64,000 nt of DNA from Polytrichum commune. Lineage: Eukaryota > Streptophyta > Polytrichopsida > Polytrichales > Polytrichaceae. Position numbers and translations under genes: made by a program. The stretch spans positions 4,898,001-4,962,000 of the forward strand of contig OX485806.1 of NCBI GenBank assembly GCA_950295325.1, given 5' to 3'. Positions 13,501-61,279 of the stretch are shown here, one piece after another (positions within the stretch are counted from its first letter, which is position 1; every line of letters starts with the position of its first letter). Below the pieces are notes generated by a model. It ran no database searches and was not told the origin of the DNA. It was given only the letters and a program-made list of their open reading frames with translations.

Positions 13501-13749
13501 GTCCAATGCAGTTACACAACTACCACAAGATATGTTCGGCACAGAAGTTTTTTCACTAAAATATGCATACCTCACATGTATAGGTGAACAACTTATTAAC
13601 GCCCTCAATGACAAAGGAAGACTCGGAAGAATATATAATGGATTAACTAACCACATACTTGCCAAACACGGCGGATCTATCAACCTACCACGACTATCCC
13701 GTCAAGACTGTATTAGATCCCCAATTGCACGTACATTATTCCTACTCAA
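10595..13749 (+). pseudogene. LINE endonuclease and reverse transcriptase, broken
   Basis: The endonuclease begins near ITWNASSL and contains INIYMP, CGDFNRD and NSDHLPIQL, the Asn/Asp/His motifs of the APE-like family. The reverse transcriptase has ANGKTPGPDKIP, IDFKNAFGSID, SPYLFIIFLEPLL and the catalytic AYADD at 13001-13012. Lesions: in-frame TGA at 10877-10879 and 12427-12429, both where Trp (TGG) would fit; a frameshift at a nine-C run (12018-12026); and another near 12684. The reading frame stops at the insertion that starts at 13750 and resumes in frame at 16078. The family nicks genomic DNA and reverse-transcribes its own RNA at the nick; this copy cannot. Confidence 0.9.
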
Positions 13750-16734: not shown

Positions 16735-18898
16735 TGTGAGGCCAAACCCCCCACCCTTAAGCGTCCGTAGTCCGAGTAGTGGGTTTGGGCTCACATTCCT
16801 CCGCGGTATTGGATTTGGACTTGGATGAGTCCATAGTGCAAGGTTCACCCTTCAAGTGGTCTTGGATTTAACTGGAATTTCACTTTTAACAACTCAATGT
16901 ACGATTTCAATACGTATGTGGAGAATGCACAAGTTAACTATGTTATTTTAACCTCCTTATGCTCGGGTGCTATTTTGTCTTTGTTTGCTTCTAACGTCCA
17001 TCCGGCCGCTTTAGCTACACAAGCCCTTAAGGATATCCCTCTCCTAAATGGAGTCCGTGCCGTTGACTCTATACTACCACTTGAACTATCACTTGTGTAT
17101 TCCGTATCGCTACTATAAGAGGTCTCACTTGGTGTCTCCATACCGTACATAAGCCTTTAAGTATTAAGAAATACTTATGTGACTTATGTCAATCTCTCCC
17201 TCGCACCTTTGGTCTTTGCTTCCTTTGTCTTGCCATCGCGAGAGTGCTCCACATTCTCCATTAATTTGTGCACGTGGTTTATTTTTAAAGAGAGGATGCA
17301 AGTGTTAAAAAAACACTATTCTCTATAGTCAATCTCAAATACATTTACTTGTGAAAGCCACACATAACACTAACTAGCATAATGTAACTAACTACTTGTC
17401 TATGAGCTAATTAGGTAGGCTATCTACTAAGCTCCTTCATGAACCCATCTCTTTACTTTCTAATTACATAAACCTAGCTCCTTCATAAACCTAGCTCCTT
17501 CATAAACCCAGCTCCTTCATAAACCCAGCTTCTTAGCTTCTAACTAAACAAACCCAGCTCCTTCATGAACCCAGCTCCTTAGCTTCTAACTAAACAAACC
17601 CAGGTCCTTCATAAACCCAGCTCTTTACTTTCTAACTAAACAAACCCAGCTCCTTCATAAACCCAGCTCCTTCATGAACCCACAACTTTGTAGTTGTAAT
17701 CCCCAACTACCTCACTAATTATTCAAGCCCTTAACTAATCTTCCTACCTAATTTCCCTAATTCTACTAACAACCCCTTTCTAATCACACAATTCTTCTCT
17801 AATCCTAAAATCCTAAAATCCTAGAGAGGAGAGGGGGAGAGAGAATTTCCTAACTTCACTAAGACTAACTAATCCACACAAGTATATTTTTGCACTCATC
17901 ACAACATCAAGTGCTCAACTCTTAAACATGGAACTTGCAACCACGTGTATTCAAAACATGAACTTTAAGTACCACAAATTGGAATCATGAATTAACTTTA
18001 AAATCCTTCACGTCAACACTAATTCTACCAAGAGGTCAAGCCCTCTTCAAGGCTAACAAGCCTTGGCTCTCAAACTAAAAACTAAGCACACACATGTGCT
18101 CCAATATGGCTTCCCACACCCACACTTATAACTCGTGGGGTGCCTTGGAGCACAAAGGAAAGAGAGGATGAGTGAGGGAAGAATGAGGGATTATATAGTA
18201 AGCTTGAGGGGGTGAGCACCCTCAAGGCTCACGATAAGCCCTTGAGATTTCCTCCTACTTAGTAGGCGCCAATCCTATCTTCTAAGCCTTCCTCCCTCAA
18301 ATGATCAACAAGGATCCTAATTCGAACATTTAACTAGCCTTGGCTTTCTACCTACCACACTTTACCAAACTTGGGATGCTTCAACCCAAACTTAGCCTCC
18401 TTCGTTTTCCGCCGCCATAACTTTCTCCCCTTACTTTCCCAAATCGTCGCTCACCACTTAATTCAAACCACGATGCTTAACTCGTGATTTGATTGGTGCT
18501 TTGAGAATTTGCTTATCCTCCACCTTGCGTTCTTCCTTGGACCTTCCCCATTAAGTGGCCATGATGAGGTGGTCCACTTGTGCGCTCCATGTGATCCTCC
18601 ATTCATCCCAATTCGAATGCACTTGCCTCTTGAGTCACTTTGGTTGTCTCCATCCATTTGTACTAGCCTACTCACTAACTATTCAATCCAAGTTCTCCTT
18701 ACCTATCCTCATTCACTCAAATCCTTCCGAAGGTAAAAACACAATAACAACTCACATCCTAGCCTCTTACAACATGGTACTTCTAAGACTAACATTTCAC
18801 TCTTTTTATATTTTTGTGAAGTAACATGCTACTTCAAAGTGCATCAACTAACGTTTCAAGGGTCTAAGACTAAATGTGGGCACCCTTTTGGGCTCACA
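16735..18898. mobile_element. Solo-LTR-like insertion of 2,164 bp with 5-bp target duplication
   Basis: The insert begins TGTGAGGCCAAA and ends TTTGGGCTCACA, so it has TG...CA ends and near-perfect terminal inverted repeats. TATAC flanks it on both sides (16730-16734 and 18899-18903). Five-base duplication with TG/CA ends is the signature of an LTR element. There is no polyprotein, primer site or second LTR inside, so a solo LTR is the simplest reading; a non-coding retroelement is the alternative. Excision in silico restores the LINE frame across the site. Confidence 0.7.
17462..17690. repeat. Minisatellite inside the solo-LTR-like insertion
   Basis: There are about ten imperfect copies of a 16-18-bp unit resembling AACCCAGCTCCTTCATAA. 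Longer variants add CTTCTAACTAAACA. Non-coding. Confidence 0.8.
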
Positions 18899-21457
18899 TA
18901 TACCCATAAACAAAACCAACACTTCACCAACATATTACAATTACACTTCAATGAAGAACAACTAAGGGACACAAGATATATTCCCCCGCCACAAGTTATA
19001 CCCCTATGTCGTATCCACATAAATGAATGTAATCCAGATAATGACATAGCATGTACCCAAAATACCATCCAAAGCCAACATGGCGTATCACACATCTATG
19101 ATAATGACGGCCGCCACCTAATTACCATCCCCGAACAAAGGTTGAAATGGCTATGGGAACAATACCAAAATGCATTAAGCACACCACACAATTTAGAACC
19201 CCCCACACAATCATTCGAAAAAGAAGTTGTATGGTTATACCAACGGTACAAATATAAACTGCCCAAAAATGACCCCCTGAAATTCTCACAATATACACTC
19301 CCAAATGACATCCTTGAACATATTATTGATTCCTTTCACATCACACATTCATACTTCTCATCCCCAGTTACATGCCCTATTAAACTAAGACAGTTCTCCT
19401 CTACATTCTCCCGAGACAAAGTTTTCGGGTCAATAGGGACGGCATTCCAACATAAATGGACAGGCAATGGATATGCCCACCCACATACAGAAAATGACAC
19501 TCAACAAGCCCTCCATTGGGCAAGACTTGCAGCCCAAAACAACCCAGACACAATTACAATACTTATAACAATGGATCCAAATTGGTATCACAACGACAAT
19601 CCCCATGAAGGTCCTTTTCCGGACTCACACGTCATCACACACTTTAAAGCGGACACCATTACATATGACGAACCCACAATACCACCAGAACTACAAATTG
19701 AACCCCGAACAGAATGCCGCAACATTAGGATATTATGCATACACCACAGAACCACACTCATCGAACCAACAGGATACGCACATCGCATGTACAATATTGG
19801 CAAATCTTTACAAATACCGGCTATATTTAACACAACCGCGCCACCCACACCAATAAATACCTCAGTGAATCGTAGTAAGAACTGGTCACAACTCACATAC
19901 CCGCCACCCCCACCCCCGACCCAAACTACCAATATTCCACCACTCACGAATCATGACATATGCCTACCCCTCAAATATCCACCCCAATTCTGCTACTATA
20001 CCGATGGGTCATTTATACCACCCAAAGCAATAACTCAAGAACATTGGAGACGAGAAAAGGCAGGATACGGCATATATAACCCTTTTAAAAACCTTAAAAT
20101 TGTAGAAAGACTACCAGGCCTCCAAAATATACTACGAGCCGAACTAATGGCTATTCATCACACTTTATGCCTCCTCACTACTACATACCGAAATGAACCA
20201 GCACACATTTTCACAGATTGTCTTAATGTGTTATACCTCCTAAACACACAAACAAAACATCCAACCTCACACAATAGTCACCCAGACAAGAAAATACTTG
20301 AATCAATAGTTACGATGCTACAATCCCGCACACAACTCACCACACTAAATAAAGTCAAAGCCCACACAAATATAAGTGGCAACGAACAAGCGGACAAACT
20401 AGCCAAAAGGGGATGTGAACTAAGTCATAGAGATGCCTTAGCAACACACGAACATGCACATCCCACGCCATACTACCTCCAAAAAGGATGGTGGCACTCA
20501 ATGCAAGAAACACCAGATAAAGGCCCCATCCGACACCTTGGTAAATACATCGCTAAACATGACAAAAAACATAACCTATCCATTATAGCAACCCAAACAC
20601 ATCAACTACACAAGTGGCTAGACAACAAAGACATTGACAAAACATTATCAAACGATTTTTGGAACAACCCGATTATCACATATAAACAAAAAACATGCCT
20701 AATCAAATTCAGAACCGGACAATACATGGGACATGCTAGAAAACAACTCTTTTTCGGAAGAATTGCATATCCCTCACACACGTGCCCCATATGCAACACA
20801 CAAGAAGCAGACACATGGTTACATGTACTTCTCAAATGTAAACAACAACACATACACGCACTAATAACCAAAAGACATAACAAAGCCGTATGGGAAATAC
20901 GCAAACTTCTCATCTCAAACAAAAAGACAAGATACTACACACTCATGAATGCAGGAACATATAATGAACTCCCCCAAGAAAACACAGTACCATCATGGTT
21001 ACTACCATGCACATGTACCACCCAAAGATGTCACTGCAACGCTAGGCTCAAACCTGACATATTATGCATACTAGGACACCCATATAAGTCCCCACCACCA
21101 GAAGCACCCACACCGGACATTACAGTTCAATTCATAGAATTCACATACTGTAATGACAGATTCTCTAATGACACCATAAATCAAAAAATTACAAAATACC
21201 AACCACTCATAAACAATATTATCGCAAAGGGTTGGAACGTAGCCCCACTTATTGTATTAGCATTTGGTGCTAGAGCCACAACTCACATCCCCTCAATGAA
21301 CGAACTTGAAACAAAGCTTAAACTCCCTACATCACAAATTAGGAACACATTCAAACAACTTAACATAATTGCCATACAATATGCACACTCAATATTAATC
21401 CACAAAAGACGAATAGAAAATAGACAACCCATTACAGACTTACAAAATCATAATTAA
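18899..21457 (+). CDS. LINE C-terminal segment: unassigned domain, RNase H and Cys/His finger
   Basis: One frame stays open for about 850 codons. An unassigned domain lies at about 19380-19800 (KVFGSIGTAF, GNGYAHPHT, ALHWARLAAQ, ILITMDPNWY, DSHVITHF). A proline-rich spacer follows. Then comes an RNase H domain at about 19990-20430 with all acidic positions visible (YTDGSF, RAELMAI, FTDCLNVLY, GNEQADKLAK) and the His in VKAHTNIS. After it is the finger CPIC-x4-ADTWLHVLLKC typical of LINE C-termini. The end of the protein (AFGARATTHIPSM, YAHSIL) is matched by the second LINE copy. It has no stop codon for 2.5 kb, unlike the upstream half, so inactivation may be recent. Confidence 0.85.
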   Translation, partial: YTHKQNQHFTNILQLHFNEEQLRDTRYIPPPQVIPLCRIHINECNPDNDIACTQNTIQSQHGVSHIYDNDGRHLITIPEQRLKWLWEQYQNALSTPHNLEPPTQSFEKEVVWLYQRYKYKLPKNDPLKFSQYTLPNDILEHIIDSFHITHSYFSSPVTCPIKLRQFSSTFSRDKVFGSIGTAFQHKWTGNGYAHPHTENDTQQALHWARLAAQNNPDTITILITMDPNWYHNDNPHEGPFPDSHVITHFKADTITYDEPTIPPELQIEPRTECRNIRILCIHHRTTLIEPTGYAHRMYNIGKSLQIPAIFNTTAPPTPINTSVNRSKNWSQLTYPPPPPPTQTTNIPPLTNHDICLPLKYPPQFCYYTDGSFIPPKAITQEHWRREKAGYGIYNPFKNLKIVERLPGLQNILRAELMAIHHTLCLLTTTYRNEPAHIFTDCLNVLYLLNTQTKHPTSHNSHPDKKILESIVTMLQSRTQLTTLNKVKAHTNISGNEQADKLAKRGCELSHRDALATHEHAHPTPYYLQKGWWHSMQETPDKGPIRHLGKYIAKHDKKHNLSIIATQTHQLHKWLDNKDIDKTLSNDFWNNPIITYKQKTCLIKFRTGQYMGHARKQLFFGRIAYPSHTCPICNTQEADTWLHVLLKCKQQHIHALITKRHNKAVWEIRKLLISNKKTRYYTLMNAGTYNELPQENTVPSWLLPCTCTTQRCHCNARLKPDILCILGHPYKSPPPEAPTPDITVQFIEFTYCNDRFSNDTINQKITKYQPLINNIIAKGWNVAPLIVLAFGARATTHIPSMNELETKLKLPTSQIRNTFKQLNIIAIQYAHSILIHKRRIENRQPITDLQNHN

Positions 21458-25113: not shown

Positions 25114-25881
25114 TCAAATCAATTTATTGAGTTTGGCGAGCCTCATGATGCTCTTGAATACATTATCGCGGGGGCTTAGCGCCGCATTGCCGAAGGGGTT
25201 GGACCTAACAAAAAATGGGATGCTACCGGCGTGGAGCACGAGCCTTCTAAGGTAGGGGGCTAGCCTATCGACCAAAAATGTGTCTTGCCTATCGCCGGTC
25301 CAAGTGTCCGGGAAGATGACGTTGCCCGGGGGGTTCAAGACACTCTTGGTGGGGCTGTCGTCGATGAGGACGGTGTTCTCTGGAGTCGGCCACCACCCGT
25401 GCGGCGTCCCTTGCAGACGGGGGACGCCTCGCCAGAGTCTCGAGCGGAGGACCTTGAGGAACTGTTGTCCTCCGCCCCGACCGCCAAACTTGGGCACCGG
25501 TTGACCTTTCTCGTCGAGCAGCTCGTCGCAGTCCTCTTGGCCGAGGACGAGGCAAGGGCTCGGGAGATCGCGGAACAAGAAGTGCACGATGGGCTCGGTG
25601 TTCTCCATGACCATGGAGCTCCACACAATGACGTGAGCGAACTCGACCACCTCGCGAAGGAAGTCACGCAAGCCGGGACGGGCGCGGACAGCCTTGCGGT
25701 TAATGAGGGTGTCGAGCTCGCCGTCGTAGTCCCTTTCGTCGGGGTGACGGAAGGGACGCGTGGGGACCCTTGGGATGTGTTGGGTGTGACACAACACCCC
25801 GTTGAGGTCAAAAACGATGAAAGGTTTGTTCCGGGTGGGAGGTCCACTGGTAGAGGGGTTGCGACCAATCTCCGGGGGGTC
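25114..25881 (-). CDS. NLI-interacting factor / FCP1-like phosphatase domain, last exon
   Basis: The exon starts at 25881 after the acceptor TTCATCACAG, since an in-frame TAG lies upstream in the intron, and codes for 255 residues to the stop at 25114. HAD-type features: strand and nucleophile FIVFDLNGVLCH (the second acid of the usual DxDx(T/V) is Asn, as in the plant DLNG subgroup); VIVWSSM as motif II; ENTVLIDDSP as the acidic pair of motif IV. The family dephosphorylates Ser/Thr proteins such as the polymerase II tail. The Asn change suggests altered or lost catalysis. The upstream exon was not found; the region where it should lie contains four palindromes. The flanking DGQHS gene is on the same strand upstream. 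Confidence 0.75.
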   Translation of the reverse strand, partial: DPPEIGRNPSTSGPPTRNKPFIVFDLNGVLCHTQHIPRVPTRPFRHPDERDYDGELDTLINRKAVRARPGLRDFLREVVEFAHVIVWSSMVMENTEPIVHFLFRDLPSPCLVLGQEDCDELLDEKGQPVPKFGGRGGGQQFLKVLRSRLWRGVPRLQGTPHGWWPTPENTVLIDDSPTKSVLNPPGNVIFPDTWTGDRQDTFLVDRLAPYLRRLVLHAGSIPFFVRSNPFGNAALSPRDNVFKSIMRLAKLNKLI

Positions 25882-26016
25882 CTGTGATGAACAACTCGAC
25901 TAGTTTAATTCTATGATCCAATAATGAAATTTTGCGTAGAAAATGAAGACGGTGCATTATGGGGAAAGACGAGGAAGTGAGGAGAGTGCAAGGAAAATGT
26001 GCTCAAGGGCACACTT

Positions 26017-26166
26017 GCGAACGAGCGTTCGTGAATGAAGGCTGCGGGGGCGGTGCGCATCATTTACGAGTGCTCGTTCGTGAGCGCGGCTACACGTACA
26101 TTTACGAGCGGTCGTTCGCGAATGAGGTGGACAGTGGGTCGCAGCCTTTCACGAACGAGCGTTCGC
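26017..26166. repeat. Cluster of four degenerate ACGAACG-type palindromes
   Basis: 16-bp cores lie at 26017-26032, 26066-26081, 26104-26119 and 26151-26166. All four carry changes (for example GCGAACG or CGTTCGC) relative to ACGAACG-NN-CGTTCGT. They sit between the 3' end of the DGQHS gene and the phosphatase exon. Confidence 0.8.
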
Positions 26167-26331
26167 GAATGAGGTGGGTATGCAAGAATGAACATAATCT
26201 CATCAACATATACAACATACGAGAAGGGGTCGAGGGCAGAGAATTTGAAGCAACGCGATGCAGATAACATAGGCTCATATATTAATCCGTTGAATATTTA
26301 CATTTCTCACGTGATAGTCTATCACATTTTC

Positions 26332-29300
26332 CTAAGGCAAAATGATGCCGTGTCCTACAAAACTGTTCGGCCCTAAGGGGGACCGCTGAAGAGGGCTCTC
26401 GCAAGGCCACTGGATGTCGATGAAGAGAAAAACATCGCGATGTTAGAGAGGTTACGAACGCGCGTTCGTTAAAAAATGGTATTCTCAGAGGAGAGTTACC
26501 TCGTCATCGGGGGGAGGGGTAGCGGCGCTGGACCGAGCAGCAGGTCCCTCCTCAACGATTAACGAACGCGCGTTCGTAACCTCCACAGCTGCAGCCGCCT
26601 CTGTCTCCATGGCCTCTGCCTCACGCTCCGGTTGAGAGGCATGTGTCGCCTGGATGCGCAGCGCGTCTTCTTCCTCGGCGCCCAGGTCGAGCGCGTCCAT
26701 CCTGACATCCTCCATCCACGCCGCATGGGTTTCTTCCACGTCCATCCCATGCACCCCTGGTGCGTCATTGGGGCTCCCCTGCGTGTCCTCCACAATGACC
26801 ATGTCAGTGTGTCGCGCAGAGTCATCGCCATGTCTGTCTACTACCCTGGGGACGACGGTGAAAGACGATGCATCGGTGTATGAGGGCAGTCCTACCCTTG
26901 AAGGGGGAGGGGTGAGGACTGGAGGACCTGAAGATTCACGAACGCGCGTTCGTAAATCCTCGTCCTCCTGGATGGCCGCCGCCACAGCATCGTGGGAGGT
27001 GGTCGAGGGAACCTCTGGTGGCGGAGGAGTGCCAACAGGCGTGGGGTGGGGCGCCTGCTGGCGGGAAGGCCCTCCGGTGAACATGCCCGGTGGAGGGGAT
27101 TGGGAGGGGTATCCTCCAGTGAAGGGGTAGGCCGGCTGGGGGGGCGCCGAGAAGCTCTGCATACGCTGGAGCATGGCGAGGATGGCGTCCGTCTTCTCGT
27201 TCGACTGCCTCAGCTCCTCCTGAATTGCGAACATTTTCTTGGCATTCTCCTCTGCCGCCTTCGCCATGTCCTCCTTCATCTTTTGCTCGAGCTTGGCGTT
27301 AAGCTCGGCGACGGACAACGCCTCCTCTTTGACCCTCTTGTTTTTGTCAAAGTCTACCCCCAGCTCGACCATGATCTCCATGTCGCCCTCGTCCTCATCG
27401 GAGACCTCGATGATTGCCCCCGGAGGCAGCTCCACGTAGGGGGTCTTCTTCATCCTCCGCCTCGTGTTGCGGTACTGGTCCAACGTCGGTCGGGACCGTT
27501 GGTCCAGAAGGTCGAGGTTCTCCATCTTGGGAACCACGATCGGCCTGGGCGACACGGATGTCGAGCATCCCCCGGGAGTGCCGAATGCCTCCGCTCCAGA
27601 CGTTCTCGCGGGGAGGACATCTTGGGTTGTCCCCGCCGACGACCCCGTGTATCCACCCGGAGTCCCTTGCACGTCGGATGGATTTCCCGACGGCGCCAAA
27701 ATGCGGAGAGGAGTGACGTCCAAGGATCGGAGGATCGCCTCGACGTTGTAGGAGGGCGCGGGCTCGTCGTCGTCCGTCTCCATGGCGGGCATGCCTTCGT
27801 CGACGGGCATGTTGATGTCCGTCCTCGGGAGGGACATGTCCTCCAGGTCCATCGTGGAGGCCTTCGCCCTGTGCACGTGGAAGTCCTCCTCGTCGATGGC
27901 TTCAATGAAGCTGTTGACGACCAGCCCCAGCATCTGAGATTCAAGCAAATACGTTAGAAAATACGAACGTGCGTTCGTAAACATCAACGACGAGAAACAA
28001 TGTCATCAAACCCAAGACAAGTTGAGGTGAACTTTACGAACGAGCGTTCGTAAATATTAGTTGGAGAGCTTACCATCGCAGCGTACATGAACTTGCTGCC
28101 GCCACAAACGTTGTACACGGTCTCTCCGCTTATTGCCACGCTCTGCAAAACGGAGACGTAGAACTCCAACCTGAGTTCCATCGCCGGGAAGACAGTGTAC
28201 AAGGTCTCCTGCAGCAGATCCTTGGGAGGGGGATGGGGGATGCTGTAGATCTTCTTGAACGTAGTGTTCGCCTTGACAGGGGCTCGCCCATTCCGCAGCG
28301 CGTTGTACGTCAAGAAGACGAGGCTGACCGCCCCCACCTGTTTGTTCCCCCTGGCCTCGTTGATGGCCACGATCCCTTCCGTCTTGGCGGGCACGTAAGT
28401 GCTGTGGAAGATGCTGTACTCAAATTTGATCGACTTCTCGTACAGGTCGACTACAGCAGAGAGCTTCTCCTGCTCGACTATCCACAGCCAAACGTGAGGC
28501 TCCATCATGTCCGGAGACTTGTGCTCCTTGAACTTGGCCATGAAGGGGTCATAGAAAGGTATGTCCTTCCCCCCCTGCCTCGACGCACCGGGGATCCCCC
28601 TGAAATCGATCAGGGCAAATGGGCACCCCCGTCGATCCTCCCTCACCTCGGCCCTGCTCATGGTCCGGTCCCACTTGGAAAATGTCACCCTCTCCACTCC
28701 TTTTGTCAACAGATAAAATCTGGCCACTCCTTCGAATGTGGCCAACCTCTTCCGCGTCAAAAAGCTTCTGTATTGCTCCACCTCCTGGGGATCCGTCTCG
28801 GTTTTCTTTGTCCTCTTGTTCCCCTTCTGCTTCAAAATGGAGGCGTGCTCCTTGACAAGACAACGCATTGAGGGTCCGGAGATGTTGTAGTCGACCTTGA
28901 ACATCTTCCAGCTGGCCCAATTAATGTCCCCGTCGGCTAGGATGAGTGCGTACTCTGGTATTAGGGCGCTCAACTCCCTCATTGCAGCAGTCTTCAGCTT
29001 GCGGTGTTCGCACCATTCCTTGATGGAATACGTGCCGGGCTTGTGTCTTGGCCTCTTCAAAAATATCTTCGGGTATGGGATGGTTCTTCCCACAGTGTTC
29101 CCAAGAAGATGCACCGCGCACCTCTGCAACTCGGACTCTGTTAACCCTTGAAGGGACCTGAAGAACTCCCTCAGTAGTGGAGGGGCCTCCCCGGTCTTCT
29201 CCGCGTTGTACTTCTCCTCGGTGTCGGGGTTGACCAGATCGCCCGAGCTGTGCGCATCAAAAAATTGTGTCCACAACTCCCAAGTGTCCCTGTTGCAACA

Positions 29301-30816
29301 GATGAGGCGGAGCTCACCCTTGAGCTCCAGGACAGACTTGGTTGTTGTAGACTTCATGTCGATGGAGGAGAACTTGTCCACCATCGCGTCGCAGAATGCC
29401 TGCAGCAAGAAAAACATCAGTAACGCACAAAATACGAACGCACGTTCGTAAGTTTGAATGTCAAAGAACTTGAAATTTTGAATGTCAAAGATATTTACGA
29501 ACGTTCGTTCGTAAACTCACCTTCCATTGTGGAGACGGCGTCTTCGCGTTCTCCCTTTCTTTAGGGGGGCACCCGTGGGCGACCCAGACGTCCCTTGCAG
29601 CCACTATGTTGGCTGCCCACGACGCCTCGAAGGCCTTGATTTTGTTGCCGGAGTTGAGGAAGGTGGATATCTTCCGCAGCTTGTCCCAATCGTCCGACCA
29701 CACCAAGAACGCCTTCCAGTAGCGCAAGTCCTCCTTCAGCTCATGCTGGAAGTTGTCGTCCTTGAGAATTATTTGGGACGCCTCCAAGCTGTGTTGGCCG
29801 TCTATGATCCAGAACTCTCCATTCTGGATCCGTGGCCAGTCCTTCTCCGTCGGACGGGATGTCAGCCCCTTCGGCATGACGCAGACGGTCTGCCTGTCCC
29901 ACTTGACGTTGTTCATTAGATTATTTATCTGCCACTTCACACCACCGCTTTCGCGAGAGCGAACCACCCATTTGTTGGGGGACATCTCGCACTTGAAGCA
30001 GTCCACGTTGAATGTGAAGTGGCGTCCCATGGGCCAGCAATCCTTCGAGTAGTTGTTGAAGTCTCGAAGGATCCTCGTGGCCTTCACAGCGTCAGGGTTC
30101 TCACCCTTTTTCAAGGGGGTGGGCATTACGACAGGCGAGGTCACCTCTGCGGTCTCCGTTACTCCCGATTTCTCCATCTCCTCCCTTGTCCTCTTCGATG
30201 GCGTGGAGTGTCTACTGGGGCCCTCCGTCGCCCTGCTAGCGGAAGGCACAGGCCTGGGTGCACTTCTAGATCCTCCTGCCCCTGATGTGGATGGTTTCCT
30301 GGGGCTCTTCTTCTTCTTGTTTGCCTCAGTGACCACACTGTTGTATTTGGAGATGTTCAATGCAAGGGCGGTCAATTTCCTTGCAGTCCAGTATGGGCTC
30401 AACGCATATTTGGAGAAGAGGCCGTCCAGGTCGAAGTGCTTGGCATCTTCCGCTACGTTATTGGTGGCGTATTGGTAGGAGAAGGTATTTTTCTGAAAAT
30501 GCAACAAGAGGTTGATATGATCCTTCTTGTTCTTCATGTCCAGAATTACATACTCCCCCTGGGCCTCTATGGACTCTATCTCCCACGTCTTCATTTGAAC
30601 CCACTGTTCGGGCTGGTCCGGTCTTGTCTCCAGCTCGTAGGTGAAGCGCATGCAGAAGAGGCCGTCCCCGATCTTCTCTGGCAGTGCCGTCCACTCCCCC
30701 ATGAAGTCTTCCTTGGGGACATAGTTGTCGTTGCCGTTATCGTCTAACACCGACTCTGGGAGGCCATCGACCTTCACCGCGAACATCTCAATGGCGCTTC
30801 TGCTTGATCTTGCCAT
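26332..30816 (-). CDS. ParB/DGQHR-like protein with C-terminal coiled coil, three or four exons
   Basis: Exons: 30816-29521 (432 codons), 29399-28074 (442), 27933-26485 (482 plus TGA), all phase 0 with canonical sites (GGAAG|GTGAGT, GCTGCAG, GATG|GTAAGC, TCTCAG). A GAG|GTAACT donor at 26500 and an acceptor before 26409 offer a fourth short exon to 26332. The ATG directly follows an acceptor, so an upstream exon or 5' UTR intron is likely. Exon 1 contains a ParB-superfamily core: FWIIDGQHSLEAS with KISTFLNSGNK about 65 residues later; the usual Arg of DGQHR is Ser. A basic Ser-rich segment (KKKKSPRKPS) precedes it. Exon 2 is globular and unassigned. Exon 3 is disordered, with SUMO-like acidic IEVSDEDEGD, a coiled coil (LNAKLEQKMKEDM ...) and proline-rich tail. 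The family cleaves or clamps DNA in bacteria; the role here is unknown. Confidence 0.8.
26454..26469. repeat. Palindrome core just past the exon 3 stop
   Basis: ACGAACG-CG-CGTTCGT lies in the 3' UTR or alternative last intron of the DGQHS gene. The duplicate at 35802-35817 occupies the same relative position in the truncated copy, so this site predates the duplication. Confidence 0.9.
26562..26577. repeat. Palindrome core inside coding exon 3
   Basis: ACGAACG-CG-CGTTCGT is read on the minus strand as part of VTNARSLIV, near the C-terminus of the DGQHS protein. Confidence 0.9.
26938..26953. repeat. Second palindrome core inside coding exon 3
   Basis: ACGAACG-CG-CGTTCGT is read on the minus strand in a different phase from the 26562 copy, giving LRTRVRE within the disordered region. 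Confidence 0.9.
27963..28051. repeat. Two palindromes in intron 2 of the DGQHS gene
   Basis: Cores at 27963-27978 (centre TG) and 28036-28051 (centre AG) lie within the 140-bp intron 28073-27934. They take up about a third of the intron. Confidence 0.9.
29434..29512. repeat. Two palindromes in intron 1 of the DGQHS gene
   Basis: Cores at 29434-29449 (centre CA) and 29497-29512 (centre TT) lie within the 121-bp intron 29520-29400. The second begins 3 bp inside the GTGAGT donor. Confidence 0.9.
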
Positions 30817-30847
30817 CTGCAACAGAATATAAACAATTAGTGACTTT

Positions 30848-31473
30848 ACGAACGAACGTTCGTAAGTGACATGCATATCCCACAGACTACGCAGTGTTAA
30901 TGCGTCTTTGCAATTGATGTAATTATATTTACGAACGTTCGCTCGTAAATGAGGGGTTGCAAGATCATATAAATTTTTAGTATTGAGTTTACGAACGAGC
31001 GTTCGTAAAAGATATGAAGATCAAAGAGACTACTCGTCATGAATGTGTTTGTAATATATTTGGTTATTTTTACGAACGATCGTTCGTAAAAGATATAGGT
31101 TTTATAGGTTTGGATTCATTTACGAACGTGCGTTCGTAAGTATGTCCATTTGGTCTATCTTTTCGGATATTTGGTTGATTTATCTTTCGTAAGTACATGT
31201 GATTTGTCTTATTGGTGTTCGCAAAATTGTATTTGTTCTTTAGATATTCATAGAGGTTCATATTTAAGTTAAGGTTCCTTCTGAGTGATATTTTGAGTAT
31301 ATTTACGAACGTGCGTTCGTAAATATAGATCATTTCAAAGAACGTGGAGTGCGTATTTACGAACGCACGTTCGTAAATGGAGGTTCGGTATGCAGTGTAT
31401 GTCCATTTACGAACGAGCGTTCGTAAATGGAGGTGGGTATGCAGTGTATGTCCATTTACGAACGAGCGTTCGT
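30848..31473. repeat. Upstream array of nine ACGAACG-NN-CGTTCGT palindromes
   Basis: Cores start at 30848, 30931, 30991, 31072, 31122, 31305, 31359, 31409 and 31458. Most extend to TTTACGAACG and CGTTCGTAAA arms, and the two central bases vary (AA, TT, AG, AT, TG, TG, CA, AG, AG). Spacers are 33-167 bp and mostly unrelated, so the motif is conserved rather than a longer unit. Part of the last two spacers repeats (GGTATGCAGTGTATGTCCA). The array is directly upstream of the DGQHS coding region, where its promoter and first intron should be. Confidence 0.95.
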
Positions 31474-31499
31474 ATATGTGATGGTTTTGGGATCCCCTG

Positions 31500-31560
31500 T
31501 CCGTACATATATGTATTCGTGTATATACGAATACATATATATATGTATATGTATATAACT
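31500..31560. repeat. AT-rich microsatellite-like palindromic stretch
   Basis: TATATGTATTCGTGTATATACGAATACATATATATATG forms a hairpin-prone alternating run just beyond the palindrome array. No gene. Confidence 0.6.
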
Positions 31561-31970
31561 CACTTATTAGCTACTCTGCTTGCAGCCGTGCCTGCAAAAT
31601 TTTGGTCAGAATGATGCAATTCTTCAATCATAAAGCAATTGAGATGCAGAATGAGATGCAGAATGAAACATGAAGAAAAGAGTGATAGTTCACATTGCAT
31701 GTAACAAAAGAAATTGAATTCAAGAAGCAACATTTTCAGAATGTGAGAGGAGTTGGAAAGGATAACAAATTACATTGAAATGCTGCACACTGCAATCCCT
31801 GCTTCTTCTCTTTCTGAAAATCCCAGAAATCCTCACAACTGCACACTCAATTGCCTTTCAAATGCACACTCAGATAACTCTCTAATGCAGACCTCAAGCC
31901 TTCACAGCTTATATACAAACCCTAGTATACTCCTATGTACACAAAACTCACAACCTTGTAGCTCTCAAGC
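31561..31970. other. No feature recognised
   Basis: AT-rich DNA without recognisable coding content. Confidence 0.4.
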
Positions 31971-32290
31971 TTCTGAACTCTTAAGCAAACCCTAAACTCT
32001 CAAGCTTCCCTAAACTCTCAAGCTTCACTTCTGAAGCTTCCTTAAACTCTCAAGCTTCAACTCTGAAGCTTCCTTAAACTCTCAAGCTTCTAAAGATCAC
32101 CCTCAAGCTCTCAATCCGAAACTCTGAAGCTTTCCTACTCAAGCTCTCAAGCTTTTGAAACTCACAAACTCTCACACTGAAAGCTTTCACAAACTCACAA
32201 GCTTTCACAATGAAAGCTTTCACAAACTCAAAAGCTTTCACACAAGCTCTCAATCTGAAATCTCTCAAAACTTGCAACAAAACTAATTTA
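31971..32290. repeat. Minisatellite of CTCTCAAGCTTC-type units
   Basis: Imperfect 15-20-bp units alternate AACTCTCAAGCTTC, CTCTGAAGCTTCCTTA and CACAAGCTTTCACA forms. It is non-coding; short frames on either strand are by-products. Confidence 0.8.
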
Positions 32291-32458
32291 AAACTTCAAG
32301 ACTAAAAAAAGCAAGAGCTTCGCTCTCTAAACGCTCCGCTCCTCCTCTCCTCGAAATGACAAATGAGGAGAAGAGGAAGGGGCGCGGGGAGGTAGGTGCG
32401 CCGCTAGGGTTTCCCAGCACCTGCCACGTGGCACAACTCCACTGGCTAGGGTTGGGAG

Positions 32459-32535
32459 AGAGATGGGATGGGATGGTATGGGAGGTGATGGGAAGGGATG
32501 GGATGGGATGGGATGCGATGGGAGATGGGAGATGG
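32459..32535. repeat. GGGAT minisatellite
   Basis: Repeats of GGGAT and GGGAGATG type run over about 75 bp. Confidence 0.8.
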
Positions 32536-34175
32536 TTGTATATTGGAACCCTTCATGTTATTCTCATGCTTTGACATATTTATATGTAATGGACACGTTT
32601 AAGGCATTAACTTGACAAGCTTAGTTCAAATACATGAATTTTACTCGTTTTATTTCCTTAGTACCTCTACATTTGGATTCCTTGTAAACATATTTTAGGA
32701 AAATATGCTCAGTTAATTCGTAATAAACAATGCATGTCACTCCCTAGGTTGTCAATGTAGAATCCACCCCCAAAGATATATATCTGGTGTTTTAAAATAT
32801 AGTTTATGTAAGAGCTAGATATCTTTCAATTAATTCGATGGTTCCTCAAATAAATATTACATGCAAAAAAGAATTCATAATAATATGAGATTGCGCAGAG
32901 TTGCTATACGATAGGATGTCAATTCAAGTTCTAATATTAGGTGTTAGCTTGAACTAATGCATTTCTGGAGTGGTCAACTATTTTGCTAGCATCAACTACG
33001 AGCTTGCGATGAATGAAGTTAATGCAATTACAAGGGTTTTTGAGGAGTCAATATTGTTTGTGTGTGTAATGTATCCTAGTAACAATCTAAAACCTAAACC
33101 CAAATACCACATACACAACTTTCACAAACCCTAAACCCCTAAACCCTACCCCCAAACCCTTACCCTAAACCCTAACCGCAAACCCTAAACCCTACATCCC
33201 TGCATCTTTTTATCTTACCAACCTTTCTTATATGTGGCCATGTTGTTTTCTGAGGGCAGGTCAAATTGGTCTACCAATGTTGGTTGGATGGAGAATGCTT
33301 AATTCCGTTCATAACAACTATAATAATTGATAATGATGGCAATTGTCAATTTCACATTCCAAATTAATAGATTTGAGATAAAACTTTGGTTTAAGTGATA
33401 AGTGAAATTTCAAATATTCCCACTTTCACCTTAATAGTTCTGAGTGAAATTTCATCACACAATCCACGATCTTATTATAATAACATGCATGTCTTAAGAC
33501 TTCAATTTATATCAACACTTTAAGCTATGATGATGCACATCCTTCTCATAGGATGCAAAACATATATTAATTGTAAGTACATACTATTGTATGCACCATT
33601 CCAAATTAATAGTGCATTTCCCCAAACCCTAAAAGTCTATTTCCAATAGGACCTCAACTCATTTAATCATGTGGCAACTTAAACTAACAATCGAACAATG
33701 CATTCCACTATAAATATCACCAATGATCTAATAAACATTTAACCAATGTGTATCCGTACCCTTACAACAAGTGGACGAAAATTCAATTTCCAATAGGACG
33801 TCAAACACATAATAATTGTAACTATGATTCAACGTTACGGTAGCTAGTATGGTTTCAAGTCTCAATGATCATTACGCTATCATACTATGCAGCATTACAA
33901 ATTGATTAATCCTTCCTACTCATGCCATTTTAATTCCTTATTTTCACACCTAGATACCATTTGAAAGAAGACCTAACTTACATATATTATTAGGTATAAT
34001 TAGTTCATAGTGTCCTCAATCTACCCTAGTGCAAGCCATTATGGATTAACCCGATTTTTTAGTTGTATTCATGCACTTGGTGACCATATTACGGTCATTT
34101 TTTGATGTGAAACATATGATACCTATAATTTTAGGGGCGTCCGCAACATGTTTCTTAGCCACTCTGACCTCATTG

Positions 34176-34218
<43 letters not shown>

Positions 34219-34744
34219 CTATGACTTCGACATTCATAACTTTATTAGGCATCAATTGTCAATTAACTTGGACTTCATACCTTAGTCGCAAATCATTAAA
34301 TATTCAATGTTAACCATCTCCATATTTAGACATTATGTGTATATATATATATATACGTATATACATATATTTCGATGAGACCTTGGTCACAACTAAGGTG
34401 TGCAACCGATTTATATATTTTCAATATGTTGGCGTGCATGCAAGGCATGTTCCATACATGACAATGCTATTTATATAATTCCGCATGGATGGAATGGGAG
34501 ATTGTTAGGTCAAAGAAGGCGGCGGGAATCTGCTTTTTAAAGAGCATCCAAGGGATTTTGAACCAGCGGGGTGAAGTACTTAAAGCTCTTCCCCCCACAA
34601 CAAAGCTCTTTTCAGCGGCACATGCAAGTGTGCGCTCTACAGACCTCACCGAACGCGCTCAAGCCATTTCGTGTGCGCCAACCCTACACCACCCAGGTAC
34701 AGTACAGGCTGTACCTACCGCATATACCGCCGTAAATACCGGAA
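32536..34744. other. AT-rich intergenic DNA with microsatellites
   Basis: No coding gene is recognised. It contains the telomere-like block at 33125-33193, a GT-then-TA microsatellite at 34176-34219 and a TA run at 34337-34360. Repeated phrases such as TTTCCAATAGGACCTCAA and TTTCCAATAGGACGTCAA (near 33640 and 33787) suggest old decayed repeats. Confidence 0.5.
33125..33193. repeat. Interstitial telomere-like block (CCCTAAA)n
   Basis: Degenerate CCCTAAAC, CCCTAAACC and CCCCAAACC units are the complement of the Arabidopsis-type TTTAGGG telomere repeat. This points to a plant-lineage genome. Confidence 0.75.
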
Positions 34745-34748
34745 CTTT

Positions 34749-35536
34749 ACGAACGCACGTTCGTAAAGATGAAGAGCTTCAGGTTTAGACAAACGATTCG
34801 GACCTGGACATGGCAAGGATTTACGAACGCGCGTTCGTAAATTCCACATGAGAGCATGTTCTGGATTGGGCTACTCATATGGATAGTCACATGCACGTAA
34901 TCCATCTCAGTTATTTACGAATGTGCGTTCGTAAATATGCCTTCGAGGACCATGCAGACATATTTGACCCTTATCTATTGGTACCTGATGGTCGGTAATT
35001 TACGAACGTGCGTTCGTAAATCCCACAGGAGATCATGTTTTGGATTGAGCTACTCATGGATAGTCACATGCACATCATCCATGGCATTTATTTACGAACG
35101 TGCGTTCGTAAATATGCCTTCGAGTTTCATACATACATATTTGACCCTTGTCTATTGGTACCTGTTGGTCGGTAATTTACGAACGTGCGTTCGTAAATCC
35201 CACATGAGAGCATGTTCTGGATTGAGGTACTCATATGGTTAGTCACATGCACTTAATCCATGACAGTCATTTACGAACGTGCGTTCGTAAATATGCCTTC
35301 GAGGATCATACATACTTATTTGACCCGTATCTATTGTTACCTGATGGTCGGGAATTTACGAACGTTCGTTCGTAAATACATGTCATTATTGTCTACACAT
35401 CCAGCAACACATCTTCATTCATGCACATCAGTATGGCAGTAATTTACGAACACAGAATAGCAAGAAAAATATGCTCATCGCTCGTCCGTGAAGGATGTGA
35501 ACACGGGGTCGCACCCATTTACGAACGTCCGTTCGT
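34749..35536. repeat. Second palindrome array, nine sites, partly regular
   Basis: Cores start at 34749, 34823, 34917, 35002, 35094, 35179, 35273, 35358 and 35521. From 34917 to 35358 the steps are 85, 92, 85, 94 and 85 bp. Here two alternating spacers recur: ATATGCCTTCGAG ... GGTCGG(T/G)AA, and TCCCACA(T/G)GAGA ... CATGCAC. So this part is a higher-order tandem repeat of about 178 bp with two palindromes each. Open frames across it (IYERAFVN, NLRTCVRKS) are translations of the palindrome. The spacers do not match those of the upstream array at 30.8-31.5 kb. Confidence 0.95.
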
Positions 35537-35935
35537 AAATGGGTAGGTACGCAAAAGTCAACATAATCAAATTCACAATATGGAGGTGCTCAGTGTTCAA
35601 AATATTGTTGGAGTTGATTCAGGCATCATCTGCAGATTTGCTAATTTTGTGCGTATGGACAAGTGTTCTCTTGTGATAGTATATCGCGCAGGTTCCTAAG
35701 TCAACATGGTACTTTGACCTACAAAACCGATATTCCTCAGGGTGCTCTCATTTGAGGGATCTCGAAGGCCGCCGGATGTACATGGAGAAGTTACTGAGGT
35801 CACGAACGCGCGTTCGTAAATGCATGTGGCGTTCTCGGATTTCTGATTTCGTCGTCGGTTGTATGTGGACAGGCGCTGGTCCGAACAGCAGGGCCCTCCT
35901 GGACGACTAACGAGTGTTCTCCTCTTTGTCCATGT
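35460..35935 (-). pseudogene. Truncated duplicate of the DGQHS gene 3' end
   Basis: This block aligns in the same orientation with 26090-26575. Shared landmarks: GTCGCA, then palindrome, then AACATAATC; GTTTTGTAGG and TTAGG of the possible last exon; the palindrome at 35802 in the place of 26454; CTGGTCCGAACAGCAGGGCCCTCCT versus CTGGACCGAGCAGCAGGTCCCTCCT of exon 3. Similarity stops near 35935, within the exon 3 C-terminus, and the rest of the gene is missing. It shows that the DGQHS locus and its palindromes were copied as one unit. Confidence 0.75.
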
Positions 35936-36142
35936 ATTGTTTACATTAGTGAACAACCTAGACGTATGCTTAAAACGTTTTTTTGGGACGCGCGTTCGTC
36001 TTTGTGCGTGAGGTTCTCCAATGGTGCACCAAAATTTGTTTGTCAATTTTGGGCCATTTATCTCCACATATATTCTATCCTCTCTTGTATGCATTGCGGT
36101 GGTGGTTGGGTTGATCATGTCCTGGTGGTTGGTATAGGCTGT

Positions 36143-39100
36143 ATGGCGTTGCATGTGGGTGATAGTTCATTGGAGTTGTCGACGTATGCATCGTCATCCG
36201 ATGCTGAATGTGAACTGTCTTCCCCGTCGGCAGATAGTAATGGTGTGCCAAACGTGAGGGGGGTGTTTGTGGATACATCCTCCCATGAATCTTTGGAAGT
36301 CCACGAACAATCTCTGCGTTCCGGAGATGACCACGATGACATTCCGTTGTGTGCCGGTTTCGGGAGGGAGCAATGGGTTGGCCTTGATGTCGTTCTACTC
36401 AACGAGGTTGGTGTCCCGGTGGCAGATGGTATATGTAGAAACTCCAATCCCCGTGATTGTGTCGATGCCAACGCCCTAGGTCTCGATGATGTTGGCGTGT
36501 GCATCTTGAACTCTTTGCTTCCGGTAGAGTTCCCGGTGACATGGAGATTTTCCTTGCGTCGATGGCCGCTTCGTCGAGTTCTACATGAGGAAGTGAGTTT
36601 GTGGGATCATGAGCGGCGGCATAAGCAAACACAATTAGCTTTGTTGGCCACAACACGTCCTCGCAAAGGCCTCCGTAGATATGATTCAAACCGTGTGCCT
36701 CGCGGAGATAAGGAGCGTCGACGGGATCGGCTTTTGGGGGACGAATCTATCCGTCTAGTGTCCGGCAAGGATTGTTGCGCGAGGAAATGTTGCCAATTTT
36801 TCCCGCGGGAGAAAATTAGATCTCTGCGTCAAGAGATGTGGCTTGCGGATTTTCGTATGAGGTCGGCTAAGAAACTCGAGGTCCACAGAAATTTGCACCT
36901 TGATACCCATGGGCATAAGGTGGTGACACTTGAGAATGTTGATGTGTGTTGTACAGCGTGGTATACCATCCACGCCGTCTCCAAGGCTGACTTTTATAGG
37001 TTTCGAAAATATTCATCGTTGGGTCGCCGCTCTCGATTTCATGGCAACTCGGGCACAAAGAAACCTAGGGAGGCTACACTGCAAGCGTCCGCGACACTAT
37101 CCACCATCATAGTGCCATTGGCCGATGCAATGCCCCACAAGACGAGGACATTGTCGTCAAGGGAGAAGGTTGTTCAAATGGTGTTGCCCACGGGCACAAA
37201 ATGGAAGAACATCTTAACGGACATCAATGAAGTGGGTCGCATAGCGGGATGTGGGCCCATTTCTTTGTCCAAGTTGAGTGTGATTAAAAACCAGCAGTTT
37301 GCGGAATACATTCTGAAAAGACCCGGGGACAAGTTCGCTAGATGTACGACGTGTGAAAAATACAAAGGTCTTCGAGACGCCCACCCCATAGGCACTGAAT
37401 CTCATTCCAGACACCAGAAAAATATATTGAACATGTCAACAATCAAGAGGCACACCGTCAAGATTACTATAAGAATCGTGCTCTATCCATAATGAGGCCC
37501 ACAGAGGTTCTAACAGTCATCCATGATAAAATGGACCACGCCAAAACCGCATGCCCTTGTTATGCACGCAAAATAAAGGCCACGGATGGTCTCTTCAAGT
37601 TGCCCGTAGCTGTCATAGGTTTGTATGAAATCACAACTACGTGTTTAAAGTCTATCCAATTTTCTTGGGTGTGTTTGGCAAATGTCCAACTCCATACATC
37701 CGTTTAGTGGTTATTTGATTATTTTGGTCACGCATCGTTTGTTTTTTCCAGGTATGATTGCCCACGGCCATGGGGACGTAAAGTATGCCCATTATGGTTT
37801 GGATTTTTACCCTGGGGATGCTAACCACACGGTGGGTTCATTTGCAAAACTGTTGCGCGATCTTGAGAAGCCACCGGTACATTCTTCCCGTGCACTTTTT
37901 GATGGTTGTGGAACCACATCCCTTTATGAGGCAGTGCTTTTGGGGAAGGAGGTTTGTATGTCGTCATTGCCAGAACCACCCGGAGAGCCCATTTGTGCAA
38001 AACCATTGCCTCCAACTCTCCACGTTCAACTTGATAATTGTGCGAAGGACAACAAATGTCGATACGTATTTTGTTTTTGGTCATTGCTCGTGGCGAAAGG
38101 AATCTTCAAGGAGGTGTTTGTGTCTTTCTTGATGGTGGGACATACACACGACGACATTGATGCATCATTCGGACGGTGGAGCATGAAGTTGCATGAAGAA
38201 GATTTTCCAACCATACCTCTTCTTATGAAATCGTATATGGATTTGGACCATATGCCAGTAATTCCGCACTTGATTGAGGAAGTACCAAATTTCAAGGCCT
38301 TCATCAAGCCATACATGTTGAAGGGAGGGGACCGTTTGGTGGGGCATACCAAAGCACAACAATTCCGATTTTATATGAGGGACGATGGTCTCCCGGCCAT
38401 GCAATTCAAGCTTTTGTGCACATCTCCTAATTGGGGCCCGGATGATGGTATACTCGTATGGCGTCAAGACAATGATGGGAAATGTTTGGTCCCGGATGGG
38501 GAACCAAAGCCTTGCAAACCCGAACCCATGAGGAATGGGCCGGAAATCATCAAAGGCATATCCGGATTCATTGAATATTGGAAAGAGTTGTGCGAGGAGG
38601 ACATCACAAGACGTGTTAGAGATACCCATGAACCGTTGATCGCGTATTGGGATCGCATTCGCTCAGCCTTGATGACACTTGGTGGCGACACCCGTACGAC
38701 TTTGACACAAGGATTTTGGCCACAAAGTCGTTTGACGGTTGTCGAGTCCGATACTATGTTTTTCAGCAATGGAGACGTTCGTGAAGAGTTCGCAATGGAC
38801 GAGCATTACGTTGGCCCTGCCCGCAATCGACCGGCACCGTCGTTTCGTGTAGGTGTTGATTGCCATGAAGGGTATTTGGTCCTCGTACGAGCTGGGGATG
38901 AGGAGCATCCCAAGCCAATTTGGTTGGTAAAAGCATTGTCTTCACCCAATTTTGTTCGAACTAGCCCCAACTTTCGTCAAATTGAGGTGGAATATTGTCG
39001 TCCAAACACTAAAGACCACAACGTGCTCCGCACTTATTTAGGTTGGGACACCAAAAAGAATTTTAAGTGGACAGTGGACTCAGCGTACACACCGGTTTGG

Positions 39101-39274
39101 ATAAACACGGATACTATACTTTGTGCTTGGAAGCCGCGCAAAGGTTCCAACACAGAAGCAATGACCATCCCCCAAAAACATATACATTTTGCCAAAGACA
39201 ACTTGGCACGTATTGCAGCTGCGGAAAATGACGCCGAGAATGGATATGAAGCGGAAGATGGAGATGGGTAAACA
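36143..39274 (+). pseudogene. DUF7869-family protein, two exons with one frameshift
   Basis: The ATG at 36143 opens the acidic N-terminal region; an upstream exon is possible. Exon 1 ends at 37618 (CATAG|GTTTGT), exon 2 starts at 37752 (TTTTTTCCAG|GT), phase 1, and the frame ends at 39269-39271 (about 1,000 residues). Mid-exon 1 has Cys pairs (DCCARKCCQFF, ARCTTCEKYK). Exon 2 has the family hallmark LQLDNCA-like HVQLDNCAKDNKCRYVFCF and SFLMVGHTHDDIDASF. The C-terminus is basic and globular (KPIWLVKALSSPNF). A one-base loss in the A-run near 37420 shifts the frame between the HSRHQK and HVNNQEAHRQDYY segments. The domain resembles DDE-type integrases and is common in plant transposon-like proteins; function is unknown. 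Confidence 0.75.
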
Positions 39275-48639: not shown

Positions 48640-48784
48640 GACCCTGTACGTTAACGCACAGGGTCTGTGCGTCCAACTACAGGTCTAACAAAGTTGGACA
48701 CGAGGTTTGGGTCGAACGACCCAAACCATGCTCACAGTTTGGGTCGATCGACCAAAACTAGGTAGACAGTTCGGGTCGGCCGAC
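48640..48784. repeat. Cluster of inverted repeats including three GGGTCG-NN-CGACCC palindromes
   Basis: TTTGGGTCG-AA-CGACCCAAA at 48706-48725 is perfect outside the centre. TTTGGGTCG-AT-CGACC(-)AAA follows at 48738-48756 with one base missing. TTCGGGTCG-GC-CGACC at 48769-48784 is cut by the LTR that begins at 48785. GACCCTGT...ACAGGGTC (about 48641-48664) and GTCCAAC...GTTGGAC (48671-48699) add further inverted repeats. The cluster is about 220-370 bp upstream of the start of the ParB-methyltransferase gene. Confidence 0.85.
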
Positions 48785-49758
48785 CTGTCGCAACCCTTGC
48801 TAGCCCCCTTAGCAATCTTACCAATTTTCGTTTCTAGCAAAGGTTACGAGCGCTAACCCTTCGCATACCGCCATGCTAATGGTTAGCTCCTCCTACCCCG
48901 GACCTTATAGTTCATAGGAGGGAACCAACCCTCCTACTTTGCTTTCGGGACTCACCCCTTAATCGGTAACCCATTCCTAGATGTGGACTTCCATTCATGG
49001 AAGTCCAATCCCATGTTGATCATCGCATTGCCGGAGCAACACTACAACAACCCGAACCATACTAGGCAACTATGGCCTCACAATGGGCCAATGCCCATGG
49101 AGGCCTTGCCGTTCGGCCTCGGGTGGGTGAGGCCACACCACCTCACCCATATAAGCCTCTAGGACTCTACACGGAGCCCCTACCCCACCGCCAACGAACC
49201 TCTTGTCTCTCTACCAAGAGTTGGGGCCAAGTGGACATTTTCCCTTAGCTGCTGGGCCTAGAACCCCCCCAGCAGCTTCAGACCATCATAACTTCCTTGT
49301 ATGATGTCTGATCATAACAACCAACCGCTCTATCCTCATCTACGCTTCACGTAGATGCCGATGGACTCCTTGCTTGCCCCATTCGGGCAAGTCTTGAGGA
49401 AGTTATGCCTGTTTGAACCTTGGCAGTCCCGGGAATCACTCCCAGGCACTGCTGTACCAGGGCGCTGTCCCGGGACAGCACCCCACTCAAATGGCCATAA
49501 CTCCTAGCTCACACCTCCGATTGAGGTGTTCTTGAGCATTCTAGAATCACCACGCCATGAGCTACGCATAGCTCATGGCCTCACCCTCATGCCTCCTAGT
49601 CTTTGTGGGTGGGAGGCGTTCCCAACGCCCGGGGCCCTCACCCACACTAGGATCACTTGGGCCCTCTCACCAACGGCGCCACAAGTCCCGGGTGTCACTC
49701 CGGGGTCCCCCTTGTGCCCATGGTGTTTCGGCCACTCCTCATGGAGTAGTGCGCAACA
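48785..49758 (-). repeat. 3' LTR of M1 (974 bp)
   Basis: On the plus strand it starts TGTCGCAACCC and ends GCGCAACA, matching 54348-55320 over its length. The internal side is bordered by the complement of a purine tract (CTCACCCCCACCAAAC). Confidence 0.9.
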
Positions 49759-54325: not shown

Positions 54326-54345
54326 GGAACCCTGCTCTGATACCA
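54326..54345 (-). other. Primer binding site of M1 (initiator Met tRNA)
   Basis: On the minus strand TGGTATCAGAGCAGGGTTCC lies two bases after the 5' LTR end. TGGTATCAGAGC is the complement of the 3' end of plant initiator-Met tRNA, the usual primer of plant gypsy and copia elements. Confidence 0.9.
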
Positions 54346-54347
54346 CG

Positions 54348-58778: not shown

Positions 58779-58780
58779 CG

Positions 58781-58800
58781 TGGTATCAGAGCAGGGTTCC
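58781..58800 (+). other. Primer binding site of P1 (initiator Met tRNA)
   Basis: TGGTATCAGAGCAGGGTTCC lies two bases downstream of the 5' LTR, identical to the M1 site. Confidence 0.92.
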
Positions 58801-61245: not shown

Positions 61246-61279
61246 ATGGCCTTTGCATATGGGGGCTTGAGGCTCGATG

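Follow-up and report, generated by a model that had tools for sequence, protein, structure and literature searches.

A spliced ParB-like gene amid arrays of a palindrome whose form differs between clades of its relatives

We analyzed a 64,000-nucleotide stretch of contig OX485806.1 (the window, meaning here the whole stretch), in which a spliced gene with a ParB-like domain lies among many copies of a long palindrome. Our model of this gene has four exons and three phase-0 introns, encodes 1377 amino acids and ends with a stop codon at 26332. The original prediction, made from the DNA letters alone, had the same extent (30816-26332) but only two introns. Domains were placed using the predicted fold of P0001, one of two relatives (P0001 and P0002) returned by a first protein search; P0001 is 48% identical to the window protein across exons 1 and 2. 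The gene is laid out as follows:

29521..30816, minus strand: exon 1, residues 1-432, bounded by phase-0 splice sites and by exon ends shared with the open reading frames (ORFs) of relatives; predicted N-terminal beta domain, variable linker and ParB-like N-domain with DGQHS (P0001 fold)
29638..30024, minus strand: predicted ParB-like N-domain, residues ~265-393 (P0001 254-382)
28074..29399, minus strand: exon 2, residues 433-874, a predicted helical region, then most of a methyltransferase-like domain
28074..28739, minus strand: methyltransferase-like domain, residues ~653-874, running on into exon 3 (P0001 640-863)
26500..27933, minus strand: exon 3, residues 875-1352, the end of the methyltransferase-like domain (by sequence) and a long low-complexity tail
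26332..26409, minus strand: exon 4, residues 1353-1377 and stop (gene model)

A search of the window for ACGAACGNNCGTTCGT with up to 2 mismatches returned 32 matches against 0.04 expected (100 shuffles, largest count 1). The match at 30852 overlaps its neighbor, which leaves 31 distinct sites, here called type A, of the form TTTACGAACG-NN-CGTTCGTAAA. The field of about 30 copies described in the original prediction is thus borne out, as are its counts of 9 sites upstream, 2 in the coding exon and 10 in a second array. Its count of five sites just 3' of the gene falls to four. The site at 26454 is intronic in the four-exon model, where introns 1, 2 and 3 hold 2, 2 and 1 sites. The remaining site lies at 24739. 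The sites, which have no strand, were located by mismatch search and, inside the gene, by the gene model:

30845..31476: nine palindromes, forming the upstream array
29431..29515: intron 1 (29400-29520), two sites
27960..28054: intron 2 (27934-28073), two sites
26451..26472: intron 3 (26410-26499), a single site
26935..26956: palindrome in coding exon 3, translated as LRTRVRE
26559..26580: palindrome in coding exon 3, translated as TNARS
26014..26169: 3' array, 4 palindromes with 1 or 2 core mismatches apiece
34746..35820: second array, 10 palindromes, partly a ~178 bp tandem repeat with two palindromes per unit
35479..35913, minus strand: what is left of a related gene copy, a 3' end aligning to 26109-26565 at 65% identity (E 1e-42)

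The tandem repeat has spacings of 177 and 179 bp and covers part of the second array. When three of its units are compared, the palindrome arms differ at 2 of 120 positions and the remainder at 52 of 413 (Fisher p 1.2e-4). The arms are less variable than the repeat around them, so the palindromes have been kept while their surroundings drifted. The array adjoins the gene remnant, which shows at least one duplication. The truncated duplicate that had been proposed here is a related copy, but only the 3' end of one. A search of Rfam gave no match.

Several other ORFs lie close to these arrays. The site at 24739, which has one mismatch, is found past a NIF-like phosphatase ORF (25114-25797, minus strand, E 2e-13) that comes next downstream of the ParB-like gene and shares its GC-rich block. 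Beside the gene remnant are two plus-strand ORFs (35966-39271), the second of which encodes a DUF7869 protein (37682-39271, E 3.8e-40). This ORF shows no link to the ParB-like gene and its product is possibly an enzyme of another mobile element; we found no literature on DUF7869.

Profile searches returned 44 and then 81 proteins, for a total of at least 116 different relatives, a lower bound since scoring in each of the three protein searches was confined to the ~8,000 candidates with the most shared words. Single-exon ORFs make up many of the relatives, in each of the three clades introduced further on; they stop at the intron positions of the window gene or a little past them. Of the 116 proteins, 104 include at least some residues outside the exon profiles. 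Where such an ORF reads past its exon, the following sequence, presumably intron, becomes visible as peptide. Right behind the exon ends of close relatives, we found the type-A palindrome translated in its three frames, as LRTxVRK, FTNxRS* and YERxFV. A second clade has the peptides FTDxRP*, YGRxSV and LRPxGRK at these places, which correspond to three frames of a palindrome with TTTACGGACG or TTTACGGCCG arms (type B, known through translation only). A third has VWVxRPK, FGSxDPN and LGRxTQ, three frames of a palindrome with TTTGGGTCG arms (type C); variants such as VS[GV]xRPK correspond to TTTCGGGCG or TTTCGGTCG arms.

To count these peptides, relatives were split into exon bodies and flanks with the exon profiles. 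Fourteen patterns gave 96 matches in 143 flanks (3,413 residues) and none in 48,058 exon-body residues; shuffled flanks gave a mean of 0.18 matches and a maximum of 3 over 1000 rounds. The three type-A patterns, which are translations of window DNA and hence independent of the relatives' tails, account for 47 of the 96 matches (13, 13 and 21, the last pattern also fitting type B). The B and C patterns were derived from the tails themselves and are backed by dyad symmetry, by clade and, for C only, by DNA. Among flanks of at least 12 residues, 66 of 87 contain a motif and 21 do not; on reading, several of the latter look one change off or cut short (P0003, P0007, P0020, P0042, P0044). P0002 reaches into exon 3, a part with no exon profile that was counted among the flanks. 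This part contributes one of the 96 matches, a type-C peptide (FGSTDPN) that parallels the in-exon sites of the window gene. A back-translation of the first 45 proteins, a weaker test than the motif count, found a palindrome with 9-bp arms encodable at 52 of 3,614 noncoding offsets versus 254 of 57,471 coding offsets.

Types A, B and C each fall within one clade in both exon trees, with no mixed clade. In the exon 1 tree (39 sequences), 8 of 9, 10 of 17 and 10 of 13 members of clades A, B and C are labeled with their type (support 0.997, 0.995 and 1.0). In the exon 2 tree (68 sequences), the corresponding figures are 11 of 22, 6 of 21 and 14 of 22 (0.995, 0.941 and 0.974). The other members are unlabeled or bear only the motif common to A and B. 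Both trees used stretches of more than 250 profile positions; over all 116 proteins, 50 have no label and 9 only the A/B-common motif. Both arms of the palindrome change together between clades, and a comparison of half-sites shows that every inferred type reads, from the center outward, GRNCG-NN-CGNYC with T-rich outer ends. At corresponding positions, related genes seem to have palindromes of different sequence, which looks like joint evolution of protein and DNA mark.

The type-C palindrome was written down from the clade-C peptides and afterwards found as DNA in the window:

48706..48789, no strand: type-C palindromes, comprising TTTGGGTCG-AA-CGACCCAAA at 48706, a second copy at 48738 whose core has a single mismatch and, judged by eye, a decayed third at ~48770

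With 3 mismatches allowed, the search gave 2 matches against 0.23 expected, a count that 3 of 100 shuffles reach; the weight of this result lies on the perfect copy at 48706, which is specified over 18 bp. A search for type B in the window returned only type-A sites, at 2-3 mismatches. The original prediction had noticed no further copies elsewhere in the window; the related site at 24739 lies outside the range it gave, and the type-C sites are a different palindrome of the same design. The type-C palindromes precede, by ~320-405 bp, the first in-frame ATG (48385) of a second gene, whose ORFs (48460-45472, minus strand, unspliced) contain FIWDGNHRFLAW and whose last ORF matches phage DNA methyltransferases (phrog_3008, E 2.9e-4). 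Profile comparison of the first gene's family with this second gene was not significant (P 0.057 and 0.16), so that a kinship between them would be argued by motif and position only. If confirmed, two divergent ParB-methyltransferase-like genes, each with its own palindrome array, would lie within 64 kb.

What kind of protein is this? A ParB-superfamily-like core had been read from the letters, and a ParB/sulfiredoxin-type N-domain is indeed what the predicted structure of P0001 contains. The fold comes from one good AlphaFold model of this relative, built with a 36-row alignment (A5) holding about a third of the sequences at hand. A four-sequence model (mean predicted local distance difference test score, pLDDT, 33) was not used, and an 86-row alignment was dropped as it misplaced exon-2 ORFs. 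Tentatively, some ParB structures align into the exon-2 helical region: seven ParB, Noc or KorB matches run to P0001 model residues 553-564 (140-163 residues aligned, root-mean-square deviation 10.8-17.0). Residues 1-125 of P0001, which belong to exon 1 in the window gene, form a mostly well-predicted beta-rich domain (block pLDDT 71-95); YEATS matches to it are weak (2 of 38 members, best E 0.019).

Sequence profiles were less telling. Exon-1 family scans used a 38-row alignment (A6), leaving out the fragments P0033 and P0034. The 'ParB-like partition protein' family PHROG_1033 was matched by 17 of 38 members with a best E of 0.0013, where single-member chance-level matches reach 0.0077, and DUF6551 by 14 of 38 (best E 0.012). 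The window protein itself gave no ParB-type match in profile searches, and searches of the ParB-like gene against Pfam, NCBIfam and PDB sequences found nothing above cut-off; in exon 3, the Pfam scan gave only a weak HAUS-augmin3 match (residues 1068-1137, E 0.014).

Beta-class DNA N6/N4 methyltransferases carry the catalytic motifs DPPY/W and FxGxG. We did not find these motifs in the methyltransferase-like domain. The place of DPPY/W is taken by DF[RC] in all nine aligned sequences and by DFR in 58 of 61 pattern-matched sequences, and GG[ST]K is seen in 53 of 56 pattern-matched sequences. The domain has probably lost catalysis.

Searches beyond eukaryotes yielded little. No relative of P0009 was found in phages by tblastn, scans of viral contigs for relatives or exact palindromes gave none that could be confirmed, and prokaryote genomes scanned with A6 gave 46 pattern matches, of which not one was confirmed. 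In prokaryote genomes, exact copies of the 22-bp type-A palindrome lie on two isolated contigs, and nothing near was found in plasmids.

Elsewhere, the window contains a tandem satellite with a ~233 bp unit (271-3776), an ORF matching RNase H and PCIF1_WW (18839-21457, plus strand) that perhaps belongs with ORFs at 10982-13795 to one long interspersed nuclear element, degenerate CCCTAAA-type repeats at about 33,120-33,190, a weak pointer to the green lineage, and large direct and inverted repeats (48783-64000) with internal palindromes such as GGGCGCTGTCCCGGGACAGCGCCC, present in three copies.

We consider it very probable that protein and palindrome form a pair, as originally proposed; the predicted fold and the clade-specific palindromes of the relatives both support this. 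The gene product would be a nuclear member of the ParB superfamily with a methyltransferase-like domain fused to it, and its dimers would recognize a clade-specific palindrome, [T-rich end]-GRNCG-NN-CGNYC-[A-rich end]. The gene encoding the protein has many copies of this palindrome: upstream, within the introns, in the exon for the tail and in the flanking DNA. Protein and palindrome would evolve as lock and key. Occupancy of many clustered sites could cover the gene, or a mobile unit containing it, with a nucleoprotein patch, possibly with ParB-like nucleotide-dependent loading or spreading. The patch would keep or tune the gene's expression, its most likely use being self-specific expression control, above all keeping the unit active or unmethylated in a CpG-methylating host, as VANC does for VANDAL transposons. 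This reading as a whole, up to self-specific expression control or anti-silencing, strikes us as somewhat likelier to be right than wrong. Given the pair, the choice of anti-silencing over plain autoregulation is close to a coin toss; we prefer it because sites occupy introns, the coding tail and an array without an intact gene. A bolder scenario, which we regard as rather doubtful, would have a radiating selfish system derive from a captured bacterial or phage ParB-methylase fusion in one eukaryotic lineage, perhaps plant-like. Each lineage's ParB-type clamp would load on its own 20-22 bp parS-like code upstream, in introns and in the coding tail and spread to keep the element unsilenced, with several codes per genome (here types A and C).

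Autoregulation of a host gene family through operator palindromes, in the manner of KorB or DndB and with neither mobile element nor silencing effect, is a possibility to which we give less than even credence. Nine sites lie upstream of the gene, and DndB and KorB both use palindromic operators. A TTGCAG acceptor immediately precedes the ATG of the window gene, and seven relatives have Q directly before the same start (...Q|M); one of them, P0003, has a palindrome peptide further upstream, and P0007 and P0044 have near-misses. Methylation bears on the same question. On the side of our preferred reading, the window is depleted in CpG (observed/expected ratio 0.69) and rich in TpG (1.17), which suggests CpG methylation, and each type-A site contains four CpGs. 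With palindromes masked, the CpG ratio is 0.95 in the upstream array but 0.69, the window average, in the second array; therefore no protection is visible beyond the sites there, which sits well with autoregulation, as does the lack of transposon ends. On the other hand, an operator needs no sites in three introns, a coding tail, 3' flanking DNA or an array lacking an intact gene, and the remnant attests at least one duplication, although numerous relatives alone show no spread within a genome.

Arrays flank the gene on both sides and also occur close to the remnant copy, as subterminal transposase-binding sites would. The sites could then be recombinase or transposase targets of a mobile element, with the ParB-like protein part of the transposition machinery. 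We think this improbable: cleavage sites would not usually lie inside coding sequence or introns, or number nine in succession, no transposase is among the fold-search matches listed, and the flanks tried contain no exact terminal repeats of at least 14 bp, only AT-rich exact 12-13-mers. A literature search on TnpA sites found nothing. Finally, many sites lie in introns or leader, and the joint change of both arms between clades could be compensatory, as for stem-preserving RNA or DNA hairpins acting in splicing or 3'-end formation. However, a reading of the match list shows nine core substitutions at seven window sites, each leaving the opposite arm unchanged, which argues for conservation of a fixed sequence over conservation of pairing. 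Sites are also found upstream and in the gene-less array, and the 2-nt spacer with CG on either side is constant in every inferred type. Hairpins are thus a very unlikely explanation.

If the self-specific reading is true, a ParB-type protein and palindrome pair is at work in a nucleus; none of the titles and abstract openings listed in our searches of open-licence literature describes a nuclear ParB family of this kind. Three protein clades and three palindrome codes on one core would be natural replicates of co-evolution, and a ParB-type specificity code could be tested directly by swapping protein clades and palindromes. The system would also represent an independent origin of VANC-like self-recognition and a source of sequence-specific DNA binders.

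Bacterial ParB proteins act at palindromic sites at or near their own gene and carry a GERR-type motif. The present system resembles ParB/parS, Noc/NBS and KorB/OB in its predicted ParB N-domain fold and in palindromic sites at or near its own gene. In contrast to these bacterial systems, the window gene has introns, DGQHS in place of the GERR-type motif, sites within introns and exon, a methyltransferase-like domain and a long tail. KorB is a ParB-type repressor with TTTTAGCGGCTAAAA-type operators (PMC11790492), the core of which, TTTAGCGGCTAAA, has one T-rich and one A-rich end, as the window palindromes do. The ParB domain of Bacillus cereus Bce_0392 is fused to an adenine methylase and is reported to nick DNA without sequence specificity (PMC5512222); the window protein would likewise combine a ParB domain with a methylase-like domain, but differs in its degenerate methylase motifs and palindromic self-sites.

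DndB is a bacterial DGQHR-motif protein whose binding sites, TACG-N10-CGTA palindromes, lie at the promoter of its own operon (PMC4507180). The window contains 24 such strings against 0.26 expected, 22 of them type-A sites, a resemblance noticed after the fact. Besides the DGQH motif, the likeness includes TACG-N10-CGTA, which occurs within type A and, going by the peptides, within type B. Unlike the DndB sites, type C lacks TACG; DndB has two sites, and membership of TIGR03187 (DGQHR/DndB) is unsupported, with the cut-off not reached (1 of 38 members, E 0.5). In Arabidopsis, VANC binds short motifs clustered in the introns and noncoding parts of its own VANDAL transposons and causes loss of DNA methylation there; the motif differs by family, and motif arrays have grown by tandem repetition (PMC5735166). 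The present system shares the clustering of motifs in noncoding stretches of the unit that encodes the protein, as well as family specificity and tandem-repeat growth. It differs from VANC in its palindrome of 20-22 bp as against a 9-bp motif, in giving no Pfam match to DUF1985/DUF287 and in that no transposase was identified here. It would seem to combine the site layout of VANC with a protein of ParB type and a site resembling that of DndB.

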